A stretch of 32,717 nucleotides of DNA from Sulfurovum sp. (GTDB taxonomy: Bacteria > Campylobacterota > Campylobacteria > Campylobacterales > Sulfurovaceae). A program made the translations under genes and the position numbers. The notes below the pieces were generated by a model. It was given only the letters and a program-made list of their open reading frames with translations, made no database searches and was not told the origin of the DNA. How positions within the stretch are numbered: the stretch's first letter is position 1; every line of letters begins with the position of its first letter. Positions 19,250-26,470 of the stretch are shown here, piece by piece. Where the stretch lies: the NCBI GenBank assembly GCA_026982075.1, contig JALSHU010000106.1, positions 1 to 32,717 on the forward strand. Reading direction: 5' to 3'.

Positions 19250-20305
19250 ATGATACATATACTAAGCAAAAAATACAAACGTTTTATTTTTTATATTGAA
19301 ATCATACTTATTCTTTTTTTACTGTCCCTTGCTTATCATTTTATACCCATAAATGATGGTAAAAAAGTATTTTACATTCCCTCATCAAACATACGTGACA
19401 TTGTACATACACTTAAAGATAATGGCTATGAGGTAACTTGGATAGATAAAAAAATGTTGACACTAAAAAAAATACCTGAAAAAGGTTGGTATAATGTAAA
19501 TCCCAGTAAACAAGGTCGCTTTTCATTTTTTCTTCACCTTCATACTCAAAAAACAAATGCCCTTATGGATATCATCATATATGCAGGAGAAACAAAAGAA
19601 GAAATCACTCAACGTCTTGCAAAGGATATGAAACTTGAGCAAAAATCACTTATTCAACATTACCAAACCCTTGCGCAATTTGAAGAAGGTGATATACTCG
19701 CACAGCGTTATACTCTAGCCAGAAATGCAGATGAAAATACAACTATACATTATCTCTTTCTTGCATCCAACCGTACATTAAAAGAATTTCAAAATGTATA
19801 TATAACAACGCCTATGGATAAGGAAAGTCTTAAAAGGCTCTTTACCATCGCATCGATTATTCAAAAAGAGAGTAACTCTGTACAAGAAATGCCCCTTATA
19901 TCTTCTGTTATTTATAACCGACTGGAAAAAAATATGCGATTACAAATGGATGGGACACTCAACTATGGTAACTATTCACATACGATAATTACTCCAGAAC
20001 GTATTAAAAATGATACGAGCCTATACAATACTTACAAACATAAGGGCTTGCCTCCTCACCCCCTAAGTTCTGTCTCAATAGATGCATTAAAAGCTTCAGT
20101 AACTCCCCAAGAGAGTAAGTATCTTTTTTTTATGCTCAACCCACAAGGCACACATGGATTTAGTGAAACATATAAAGAACATTTAGAAAAAATTACTGTT
20201 TTTAGAAAGCACCAAAAAGAAAAAGAAGAGAAGGAAAAAGTAGAGAACAATCAAACCAAATCATTTGGCATTGGCTTTAAAGCATTTGAAAAATTCAGAC
20301 TTTAA
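19250..20305 (+). CDS. mltG: Endolytic murein transglycosylase MltG
   Basis: A 351-aa inner-membrane-anchored lytic transglycosylase that cuts nascent glycan strands in the periplasm. It has an N-terminal transmembrane helix (about 13-33), a LysM-like region with IIYAGETKEEITQRLA and the YceG catalytic core. The catalytic glutamate is E207 in IASIIQKESNSVQEMPLISS. IYNRLEKNMRLQMDGTLNYG and KGLPPHPLSSVSIDALKA are family hallmarks. A highly charged, Lys/Glu-rich C-terminal tail follows. There is no Shine-Dalgarno before the ATG. The stop overlaps the tail of the convergent 54-aa gene by 11 bases. Confidence 0.93.
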   Translation: MIHILSKKYKRFIFYIEIILILFLLSLAYHFIPINDGKKVFYIPSSNIRDIVHTLKDNGYEVTWIDKKMLTLKKIPEKGWYNVNPSKQGRFSFFLHLHTQKTNALMDIIIYAGETKEEITQRLAKDMKLEQKSLIQHYQTLAQFEEGDILAQRYTLARNADENTTIHYLFLASNRTLKEFQNVYITTPMDKESLKRLFTIASIIQKESNSVQEMPLISSVIYNRLEKNMRLQMDGTLNYGNYSHTIITPERIKNDTSLYNTYKHKGLPPHPLSSVSIDALKASVTPQESKYLFFMLNPQGTHGFSETYKEHLEKITVFRKHQKEKEEKEKVENNQTKSFGIGFKAFEKFRL

Positions 20306-20459
20306 ACAAACGTATAAATTTGTCCCATAAAGAGGGTTCTTTTAAAATTCCTTTTTTATACTCTTCATTTATATATGCATATTCCTCTACTTTTTTAAGA
20401 TGTTTTTCCAAAGCTTTTGTGGCTTTTTGTAAATGCCTAGGTTCAAAATCATTGTGCAT
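20295..20459 (-). CDS. 54-aa protein, third gene of the motor-like operon
   Basis: The frame reads MHNDFEPRHLQKATKALEKH, then LKKVEEYAYINEEYKKGILK and a C-terminal EPSLWDKFIRLFKV. It is a small, mostly helical, charged protein with an aromatic amphipathic C-terminus that could touch the membrane. The ATG at 20459 lies 11 bases inside the end of the OmpA-domain gene, so it is probably made by translational coupling. Its 3' end overlaps the mltG 3' end. I recognise no family. Position makes it a candidate accessory or regulatory subunit of the adjacent channel pair. Confidence 0.6.
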   Translation of the reverse strand: MHNDFEPRHLQKATKALEKHLKKVEEYAYINEEYKKGILKEPSLWDKFIRLFKV

Positions 20460-21633
20460 CTAGTACCTTCTCTATCTCATGCATTGCATCTTCATTTTTA
20501 AGTCTAAACTTTATTTCTATCCGTCTTGATGCCTCTTTATCTTCTACACCGTTCTTTTTTATTGCGTCAAGATAGGAACGTCCTGATGCTATCACTAATG
20601 GCTTAATATTATATTTTTTACTAAACTCTAATGTAAGCAAGTACTCCATCACGGCTAAAGCTCTATCTTGTGAAAGTTTTAAATTATAAATATACCCTCC
20701 ATCACTATCTGTGTGCCCCTCTATGATAATTTTATCAAGATGTGGTTTGATATTTTCATCTGTTACCAGGGTACCTATATACTCTTCAAAAGCTTTTTTA
20801 AGTTCTTCTTTGGCTTCATCTTTCAGTGTAGCCTGTCCTACAGAAAAAAGTATATTGGATGCAAGTTTGAGAGACCCCGTTTTTTTATCTATATTGATTT
20901 TAGATCCCAAGGCCTCTTTGAGCGATGCTACAACCTGTAGTTTAATACCCGTTAGTGTTTTAATCTTTGCTTTTTGTCTTTGTAAATTTGCAAGCAAATC
21001 ATCATATTTTGTTTTTTGCTCAGCCATTAAAGCCAATACATTCAAAAGTTTTTCATCTTTAATCTTTACCGCATCTTTAGCATCTGTCAAAGCACTTGAG
21101 AGTACAAGTACTTTATCGTGATACTCTTCGAGTGTTTTCTTTGTCTTTTTCAATGTAGTCGTATTTTTATCTAACATTGCTTGAACCATTACTATTTTAG
21201 TGTTAAGTACATCTACTTTTGTCTTGCTTAGCAATAGTTTTTTGTTTAACTCCGAAATCTCAGAAAGTTTTAATTTTATAAGCCTCTCTTTTTCGGATAA
21301 TAAGAGATTTGACTTAGCTATACTGGCATTTTTAGCTTCTAAAGCTTTTTCCTGTTCAGTTATACGTTTTTTATCTTTTTTTAAATCTGCCATTAATCGT
21401 GCTACCAATGTATCTTTTTCTAACATATCATTCTCTTGTTCTTCTACAAGTGCCAAACTTTTTTCTAAAGAATCTTCTTTGTCATGCAACACAGACTTGA
21501 GTATAGAAGACTTGGAAACGATAGCACCGATAAGAAGAATAAATACAAAAAGTAAACCTGCCATGAGGTCGGCGTAAGATATCCAAAAGTTACTGTCTGA
21601 ATCACTTTTATCATGATGAAACATACTATGCAT
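20449..21633 (-). CDS. MotB/ZorB-like protein: TM helix, long coiled coil, OmpA peptidoglycan-binding domain
   Basis: A 394-aa protein. The N-terminal helix (17-39) contains the stator pattern FWISYADLMAGLLFVFILL, with D22 in the place of the proton-carrying Asp of MotB. Residues about 45-230 form an exceptionally long Lys/Glu/Leu coiled coil. Residues about 235-377 are an OmpA-like domain (LFSVGQATLKDEAKEELKKA, EGHTDSDGG, LSQDRALAVMEYLL, ASRRIEIKF), which binds peptidoglycan. It starts 8 bases inside the preceding channel gene. The layout resembles ZorB of Zorya defence and MotB, but the coiled coil is far longer than in either. No flagellar, ExbD or Tol neighbours are present. Confidence 0.82.
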   Translation of the reverse strand: MHSMFHHDKSDSDSNFWISYADLMAGLLFVFILLIGAIVSKSSILKSVLHDKEDSLEKSLALVEEQENDMLEKDTLVARLMADLKKDKKRITEQEKALEAKNASIAKSNLLLSEKERLIKLKLSEISELNKKLLLSKTKVDVLNTKIVMVQAMLDKNTTTLKKTKKTLEEYHDKVLVLSSALTDAKDAVKIKDEKLLNVLALMAEQKTKYDDLLANLQRQKAKIKTLTGIKLQVVASLKEALGSKINIDKKTGSLKLASNILFSVGQATLKDEAKEELKKAFEEYIGTLVTDENIKPHLDKIIIEGHTDSDGGYIYNLKLSQDRALAVMEYLLTLEFSKKYNIKPLVIASGRSYLDAIKKNGVEDKEASRRIEIKFRLKNEDAMHEIEKVLDAQ

Positions 21634-22744
21634 TTTCCTGTTTTTCTTCTTCTTTCAATGTAACCATGTTTTTCAATATGAGTTGATTTTGTTCAGAAAT
21701 AATACGTGCAAAGGTAGTAAGCTTTTCAACTGCCACGCCTAACTCTTTATCAATTTTGTCAAACGTATGCTCTACAGAACCATCAAAACGTTCCATAGAT
21801 CGTTGTAAACTTAATGCATTATTGTTAAATCCTTCAATATTCTCTTGCATGGCAGAAACTGCATCTACTGTCTCCTGTCTATTTTGTATGCTTTCTAGGG
21901 TATCTCGAAGTTCTGCTGATGCTTCCTGCATGTGTACAGTAAGTTTTGTAAAACTGCTACTGGTATCATGTATGATAGTTGTAAAGTTTTTCAGGTACTG
22001 TTCATTTAGCTCTTTGATAAAATCCATATTAAATGTATCTTTAAGTGTCTGGACTATCTGTTGATCTTTTAGTTCACTTTGCATATGCTCGTGTTTGATA
22101 AGTTCAGATTTTTTCCATACCCTTGAGCCATATATCTTTTCTAGTTCAAATATCTGTTTATCTACTTTTGCCAAGCCTCTTTTTTCAAAATATGTCCAGA
22201 TTAAAGAAAGCATAATTCCATAGATAGAAGCATAAAATGCTGTACCGATACCTGATAAGAGCAAAGATATCTCACGGTCTAAAGCTTCGATATCTTGTAC
22301 CGTAAAATCAGGCATAGATAGAGCTATAGCAATGAACGTACCCAAAATACCAAGCATAGGGAATACAGATGGTGCTACACGCGCAAAATTATCATTTCGA
22401 ATATCCTTATAATACTCAGCTATAAAATCTTTAACATGTAGTGTAGACTTGGTCTTACCCATAATGGTCAAAGCATTTGCGCGCAATGCGGTATGTAAGT
22501 CATCTTCCATACCTGTAAAAGTATTATGCATATGGCAGATACTGTAGTTAGCATTGTGTTTAACAAAAAATGCAAACACAATAAAAATAAAAGCAACAAT
22601 GATTAATGTATGTATTTCAACTTTCAAAGAAAATATATTTACATACGCCAGTAACAGCCCTAGTAAAAAAAGAAAAGGTAGCAAAAGTATCACTAAAGAA
22701 TGCGATATACATGAAGTTGTGTTTTTTTGTTCAAGTTGTAGCAT
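21626..22744 (-). CDS. MotA/TolQ/ExbB-family channel with long cytoplasmic tail (ZorA-like)
   Basis: A 372-aa inner-membrane protein with four hydrophobic segments: about 17-37, 44-62, 122-143 and 159-185. The third, VFPMLGILGTFIAIALSM, and the fourth, LLLSGIGTAFYASIYGIMLSL, carry the small-residue/Thr pattern of the pore-lining helices of MotA, TolQ, ExbB and ZorA. Residues 186-372 form a long predicted helical/coiled-coil tail in the cytoplasm, as in ZorA. With the next gene it should assemble a proton- or sodium-driven 5:2 motor. The ATG at 22744 has AGGA upstream and a TATAAT box at 22775-22780. Confidence 0.82.
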   Translation of the reverse strand: MLQLEQKNTTSCISHSLVILLLPFLFLLGLLLAYVNIFSLKVEIHTLIIVAFIFIVFAFFVKHNANYSICHMHNTFTGMEDDLHTALRANALTIMGKTKSTLHVKDFIAEYYKDIRNDNFARVAPSVFPMLGILGTFIAIALSMPDFTVQDIEALDREISLLLSGIGTAFYASIYGIMLSLIWTYFEKRGLAKVDKQIFELEKIYGSRVWKKSELIKHEHMQSELKDQQIVQTLKDTFNMDFIKELNEQYLKNFTTIIHDTSSSFTKLTVHMQEASAELRDTLESIQNRQETVDAVSAMQENIEGFNNNALSLQRSMERFDGSVEHTFDKIDKELGVAVEKLTTFARIISEQNQLILKNMVTLKEEEKQENA

Positions 22745-25876: not shown

Positions 25877-26052
25877 AACCTCTCCTCAAACTACTTTTCG
25901 TGACACTTTTCTTACATGGATGTACACCAGGCATTGGAATAGGTATTCCACTAGGTCCAGTTGGATTTATAGGGGTTGGTGCAAACAAAAATGGTATACA
26001 TCCTACTGCTGGGGTTCGAGCTGGACCTGTGGGTGTCGGAGTGAGTGGTTAA
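25873..26052 (+). CDS. Tiny glycine-rich lipoprotein at the end of the znu operon
   Basis: A 59-aa protein whose ATG overlaps the znuB stop (ATGA). The signal MKPLLKLLFVTLFLHGC ends in a lipobox (Cys17). The mature 43 residues are mostly Gly, Val, Pro, Ile and Ala with a repeated GPVG motif: GIPLGPVGFIGVG and later RAGPVGVGVSG. There are no Cys or His residues beyond the lipidated Cys and one His, so it is not an obvious zinc carrier. I do not recognise a family. Coupling to znuB suggests an outer-membrane accessory to zinc uptake, but only by position. Confidence 0.65.
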   Translation: MKPLLKLLFVTLFLHGCTPGIGIGIPLGPVGFIGVGANKNGIHPTAGVRAGPVGVGVSG

Positions 26053-26134
26053 ATTATTTTACATTGTGCCTACTATAGTTCTATATACGTCTTATGTTCT
26101 TGATACATCTAAGGTTTTACGATACACTACCCAT

Positions 26135-26470
26135 ATGAAAAACTTTTTACAAACTGTCAGTGCACTCAACGATGAGACTAGACTAACCATACTTAGATTT
26201 ATAGATCTCAATGGTTCTGTATGTGTATGCGATATAGAGGCAGCCTTTTGCATGATTCAATCTCGGATTTCAAGACATCTTAAAATCCTAAAAGAAGCTG
26301 GATTCTTACGTGTCAAACGTCAAGGACGTTGGGCATTTTACTCTATACGCTCTCCTCTTGATACATTTCGTCAAGATATTTTAAAAGAAATTTCTTATTT
26401 AGAGATGCATGTACCTCAACTTGAGAAAAACTGTAAGAACAATATAAAAGAGACATACTTAAAAGATTAA
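26135..26470 (+). CDS. ArsR/SmtB-family metal-responsive repressor
   Basis: A 111-aa winged-helix regulator: ALNDETRLTILRFI (about 9-22), then CVCDIEAAFCMIQSRISRHLK, the recognition helix region, and LRVKRQGRWAFYSI, the wing. The CVCD segment is the thiolate site of arsenite/antimonite-sensing ArsR proteins (alpha-3 site), with another Cys seven residues on. I start at ATG 26135 because MKNFLQTVSALND matches the family N-terminus; an in-frame GTG at 26045 overlaps the lipoprotein gene. There is no clear Shine-Dalgarno. It may read through from the znu operon or use its own TTGATA/TACACT promoter. Ligand and target are unproven. Confidence 0.87.
   Translation: MKNFLQTVSALNDETRLTILRFIDLNGSVCVCDIEAAFCMIQSRISRHLKILKEAGFLRVKRQGRWAFYSIRSPLDTFRQDILKEISYLEMHVPQLEKNCKNNIKETYLKD

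Follow-up and report, generated by a model that had tools for sequence, protein, structure and literature searches.

What does a motor that resembles the one powering Zorya, a phage-defence system, do when it stands by itself? This question is raised by three overlapping genes on the minus strand of a Sulfurovum sp. contig, of which a stretch of 32,717 nucleotides (hereafter the window) was analysed. The first gene encodes an A subunit of the ZorA/MotA/TolQ type (372 aa, positions 21626..22744) and the second a B subunit of the ZorB/MotB type (394 aa, 20449..21633), the two frames overlapping by 8 bp. The third (20295..20459) encodes a basic protein of 54 aa, a candidate partner, and overlaps the B gene by 11 bp, to which it is probably translationally coupled. 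The original prediction described a MotA/TolQ-type channel, a protein with D22, a coiled coil and an OmpA domain, and a 54-aa frame, all overlapping; we observed that the frames, the Pfam matches and the AlphaFold models agree on this architecture. The neighbours were also as described in the window, mltG on one side and a zinc transporter (znuABC) on the other, with no Zorya effector alongside; mltG is convergent with the 54-aa frame, whose end overlaps it by 11 bp.

Pfam detected MotA_ExbB (PF01618, 1.8e-8) in the A subunit and OmpA (2.8e-12), together with a weak MotB plug, in the B subunit. With PADLOC the pair matched ZorA (7.5e-18) and ZorB (5.6e-56), and Pfam, PADLOC and NCBIfam together place it closest to ZorA/ZorB, the NCBIfam ZorA and ZorB cut-offs being missed by far. 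The best PDB folds were ZorA for the A model (E 3.5e-5, with low TM-scores) and ZorB for the B model (8.9e-11). In a channel-core tree built on 85 columns, the family forms one clade (support 90) that is joined with the Zorya A subunits (94), in an inner order that is not resolved, and lies apart from MotA, TolQ and ExbB. Two further PF01618 channels of the same genome resemble TolQ and ExbB.

The AlphaFold model of the A subunit has four predicted membrane helices, a helical cytoplasmic tail of about 180 residues (approximately residues 191-372, 21629..22174) and, between the helices of the cytoplasmic loop, a beta hairpin (residues 91-100). Such a hairpin is a trait of Zorya-type A subunits (PMC12505986), which the model resembles in this respect. 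The tail has a heptad periodicity of 3.50, higher than in 99.8% of 500 shuffled sequences. We also observed that residues C12, H45, H63 and C70, within or close to membrane helices 1 and 2, are nearly invariant; the motor model leaves them unexplained.

In the B subunit, the membrane helix carries the aspartate expected of the 5:2 ion-driven motor superfamily, D22 (21568..21570), which lies in the putative ion pathway and is invariant in every alignment (35, 33 and 44 homologues). The solved ZorAB complexes (PMC11890865) are the basis, by homology, for assuming five A and two B subunits. A single helix is modelled from residue 12 to 165 and another from 178 to 242, with low confidence at residues 164-180, followed by an OmpA-type peptidoglycan-binding domain (residues 262-362, 20548..20850) in which D309 and R324 are invariant (alignment A4). 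Between membrane and wall domain lies a proline-free periplasmic coiled coil (approximately residues 41-225, 20959..21513). Its heptad periodicity of 3.50 exceeds that of all 500 shuffles, and the heptad phase is steady along the whole coil, starting at the membrane helix, with no lasting jump in the four proteins examined. Across homologues, we counted 24,788 linker residues, none of them a proline and only 0.9% of them glycine. The coiled coil first proposed, put at about 185 residues, is thus supported, and it is unusually long.

The length of this rod varies widely. Measured from the membrane motif to the LTG motif, the linker has 181 residues in the window protein and 114-272 across homologues, while the whole B subunit ranges from 317 to 491 aa; fully extended, the rod would measure about 27 nm in this species and 17-40 nm across the phylum. 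We compared linker lengths between two conserved anchors in 145 homologues with the window protein as reference, and observed that the difference is an exact multiple of 7 in 126 of them. The others fall in classes 4 (n = 15), 6 (n = 3) and 3 (n = 1) modulo 7, classes 1, 2 and 5 being empty. Class 4 is the outcome of one 11-residue (hendecad) step, which is likewise tolerated in a coiled coil. When only distinct lengths are counted, 18 of 29 lie at multiples of 7 from that of the window (p = 4e-9). When length changes are inferred on a tree restricted to the membrane and OmpA portions of B, multiples of 7 account for 54 of 68 under unordered parsimony (p = 3e-33 against 1 in 7) and for 61 of 76 under linear parsimony (p = 8e-38 against 1 in 7). 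Mutual nearest pairs with unequal linkers gave the same picture (12 of 13 differ by multiples of 7). In the same homologue comparison, the A tail lengths follow no multiple-of-7 rule, the tail being an imperfect control because its end is free.

These data support the view that the linker forms a single uninterrupted coiled coil, with selection keeping its register, and its heptad-stepped length evolution is what is new here. Repeat slippage in units of 21 bp was considered as the source of the steps and rejected, the B gene having no tandem repeat. Of the recent indels examined, most fall at residues 56-78 and are not evidently tandem duplications, and inserted segments are mostly little closer to their own flanks than shuffled sequences are. 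A trade-off between rod and tail length was also discarded (correlation weak at -0.19 and confounded by ancestry). Two irregular cases were seen: at one locus (L048, G011:C154, 10265-14358) the A-B pair is tandemly duplicated and one B copy is cut to 199 aa, and several genomes of the same genus encode, away from this locus, larger B-like proteins (L062-L066, 359-624 aa as read) that may form a second family.

How widespread is the motor? At E ≤ 1e-30 the B subunit was detected in 190 of the 397 genomes sampled across Campylobacterota, in 23 of 68 genera, and those members of the window's family that lack a match fall in two genera. Most matched genomes have one match, some two or three, a figure that includes split or partial matches. 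Among 60 relatives searched, strong matches occurred in most genomes of the same genus. An A gene adjoins B at 147 of 152 loci, and some of the remaining five end at a contig edge. The three-gene conservation across Campylobacterota that the original prediction proposed to look for therefore holds in part: the A-B pair is widespread, but the trio is found mainly in Sulfurovaceae.

For the gene neighbourhood, we read 38 regions from relatives, of up to 19.5 kb each. No single neighbour is common to all loci. In Sulfurovaceae-type loci, mltG follows in convergent orientation at 17 of 73, as in the window; since it is convergent, co-regulation is not implied. The MreC gene precedes A at 12 of 73, in the order lpxA-clpX-mreB-mreC-A-B where this was read, with a 4-bp overlap of mreC and A in four loci. 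These mreBC-linked loci make up one clade (13 leaves, support 0.995), so the linkage probably arose in one event. Of the hints at wall growth it is the strongest, if a modest one. Directly upstream of A, 14 of 73 loci have a DUF2201 metallopeptidase-VWA gene (L034:5061-6263 and further loci), on the strand of A and often 46-90 bp from it; we rejected it as a required partner, as it is absent from the window's own genome and many others. In Campylobacter, the order peb4-fbaA-A-B-PLP enzyme is fixed at 17 of 17 loci, and an nth-like gene usually lies upstream in the opposite orientation. At one of them (L182) the gene two places upstream of A has a match, covering all 252 residues, to the solved structure of PEB4 (cell-binding factor 2) from Campylobacter jejuni, which identifies this family (f10) as Campylobacteraceae. 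We take the Campylobacter A and B proteins to be Cj0598 and Cj0599, and the whole locus to be Cj0596-Cj0600. Cj0598 is named in the literature searched only as a hypothetical protein, with no phenotype.

The third gene is kept at 77 of the 80 named Sulfurovaceae loci, and at the three others only 129, 18 and 0 bases remain past the B gene. The 11-bp overlap of its start with the B stop recurs in 54 of the 77. Across 28 close pairs, codon positions 1, 2 and 3 have 296, 200 and 485 substitutions, and in 25 of these pairs dN/dS was mostly well below 1; this purifying selection indicates that the frame encodes a real protein. It has a median net charge of +6, an N-terminal F-x-P/A motif (72/78) and a conserved C-terminal aromatic-basic stretch. 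An amphipathic membrane anchor was considered and dropped, the C-terminal amphipathicity being not above that of shuffles in most sequences. Weak 54-aa-like frames occupy the same position in other families, with E-values that are relative to a small candidate set, and none was found in the 17 Campylobacter loci. Of the three-part system first proposed, the conserved small gene thus stands; its generality does not, as Campylobacter has the pair alone.

How might these parts work together? We give an even chance to the reading that the pair is an ion-driven, peptidoglycan-anchored motor of the ZorAB class with a rigid strut, acting alone in wall or envelope upkeep. By analogy with solved complexes, five A subunits would surround a B dimer that grips the peptidoglycan through its OmpA heads, with D22 of the membrane helices in the ion path. 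The straight, unbroken coiled-coil strut, kept in heptad register, would join the membrane helices to the heads. When the wall loads the strut, ion flow would turn the A ring, together with its tail bundle in the cytoplasm, relative to the anchored B dimer; stoichiometry, ion flow, rotation and gating by the wall are all taken from the analogy. In Sulfurovaceae, the small basic product, presumably cytoplasmic, might dock as an adaptor on the tail or on the inner-membrane face. The likely use would be to link the growth or maintenance of the envelope to the condition of the wall. This purpose is suggested by the gene neighbourhood (mreB-mreC, mltG), which hints at a wall role. It was proposed at the outset that the motor is a stand-alone envelope device, possibly related to wall synthesis, motility-free transport or defence: it does stand alone, the wall is the better supported option, and envelope or wall upkeep is more likely than defence. 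A rod range of 17-40 nm, on the other hand, does not fit easily with a single set distance between membrane and wall and counts against this reading.

A different use would be that of an outer-membrane energiser or tether like TolQR-Pal, in which the rod would carry the OmpA head to the outer wall and hold or pull the outer membrane. A coil of about 27 nm when extended could span much of the periplasm, and the Campylobacter pair has as a neighbour peb4, which encodes a chaperone of outer-membrane proteins. Nevertheless, no outer-membrane partner gene is linked to the motor, the genomes carry TolQ/ExbB-type channels as well, and the OmpA domain resembles the wall-binding type, so that we consider a tether unlikely, if still the first of the alternatives. 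Rather unlikely, too, is a passive sensor of wall tension or a gated ion leak, where the strut would open the channel under load and nothing would usefully rotate. Mechanical gating might indeed need no more than a rigid strut with a head that binds the wall, but this would leave the long heptad-periodic A tail without an obvious role, and published models depict the related complexes as rotary motors.

Phage defence, by an orphan ZorAB sensor-motor whose effector is encoded elsewhere in the genome, is suggested by the profiles and folds described above, the Zorya models being the best database matches of both subunits. However, the motor is inherited broadly and clade-wise beside housekeeping genes, whereas defence genes are patchy, and ZorAB by itself was reported to be insufficient for defence (PMC8565338). 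With an E. coli query, ZorE was found in 7 of the 397 genomes, each time adjoined by a ZorB2-like frame of 236-251 aa, and the same search found no ZorE in the window's own genome. These seven Zorya II-type sets (L256-L262) have ZorB- and ZorE-like frames and most also a ZorA-like frame. Three of the seven genomes (G142, G179 and G224) hold a genuine Zorya II and, elsewhere, the stand-alone pair; the two are therefore separate. The ZorC model gave no match in the own genome or the 397 genomes, nor did the EH_Signature search give any, both being searches without a positive control that carry no weight here. No effector type (ZorC/D, ZorE, ZorF/G) was matched by PADLOC among the ten flanking proteins, ZorF and ZorG having been sought in the window only, and no same-strand neighbour of effector type recurs across the compared loci. 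A ZorB search in plasmids gave no match. Given the clade-wise inheritance and the separate Zorya II sets, we consider the defence option, which the original prediction had kept, improbable, and it is well supported that the motor is not a Zorya system but forms a family that is sister to its engine: the channel pair is there, but an effector in the same operon and a compact B subunit (here 394 aa) are not. Two side observations concern defence annotation. The flanking proteins matched no defence model, save HTH-type models on a small protein (26045-26470) with matches to HTH-type Csa3 and CARF profile regions, which is probably an ordinary regulator. In addition, a 6.5-kb faecal scaffold labelled Bacteriophage sp. 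(L253, MT837639.1) encodes a ZorA-like and a 233-aa ZorB-like protein followed by frames of 618 and 787 aa, and looks like a bacterial Zorya-type operon although it is filed as phage.

Finally, it is very improbable that the motor drives wall growth with the register-locked rod as a true drive shaft, the A tail being fixed to cytoplasmic partners (the 54-aa protein or, in the mreB-mreC-A-B clade, MreB-MreC) while ion flow would turn the B dimer and the rod would turn or ratchet the OmpA head against the peptidoglycan, so that the elongation machinery would receive an ion-powered push; heptad steps alone do not prove torque transmission, as any unbroken coiled coil favours them. The stepped rod does predict that transmission of torque or tension depends on register, insertions of seven residues working and others failing. 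The motor is a widely conserved machine, unstudied in the literature searched, in a phylum that includes Campylobacter. With a ZorAB engine set apart from phage defence, tools that call the pair Zorya may overcount defence systems.

Compared with known systems, the motor shares with the flagellar stator MotA-MotB four predicted A membrane helices, an aspartate in the B helix and an OmpA domain, but it forms a separate clade in the channel tree, lies outside flagellar loci and has a long continuous coil where the stator has a short plug and linker. TolQ-TolR and ExbB-ExbD belong to the same channel superfamily; the motor differs from them by its separate clade, the OmpA domain on B, the long rod and the lack of a TolA or TonB gene nearby. 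Flagellar or exbBD-tolA loci, which would have spoken against a separate system, were not encountered in the neighbourhood comparison. With ZorA-ZorB of Zorya types I-III it shares most, namely the channel core, the aspartate of the B helix, the OmpA head, an extended helical A tail and the beta hairpin of the A loop. It is distinguished from Zorya, a separation that is well supported like the gene architecture itself, by the lack of an adjoining ZorC, ZorD, ZorE, ZorF or ZorG among the genes searched, by its own 54-aa partner, by its broad clade-wise inheritance and by a B subunit of 317-491 aa with a heptad rod of 114-272 residues, whereas the Zorya II-like examples read have 223-251 aa (236-251 aa in Campylobacterota, 223 and 235 aa in plasmid examples).
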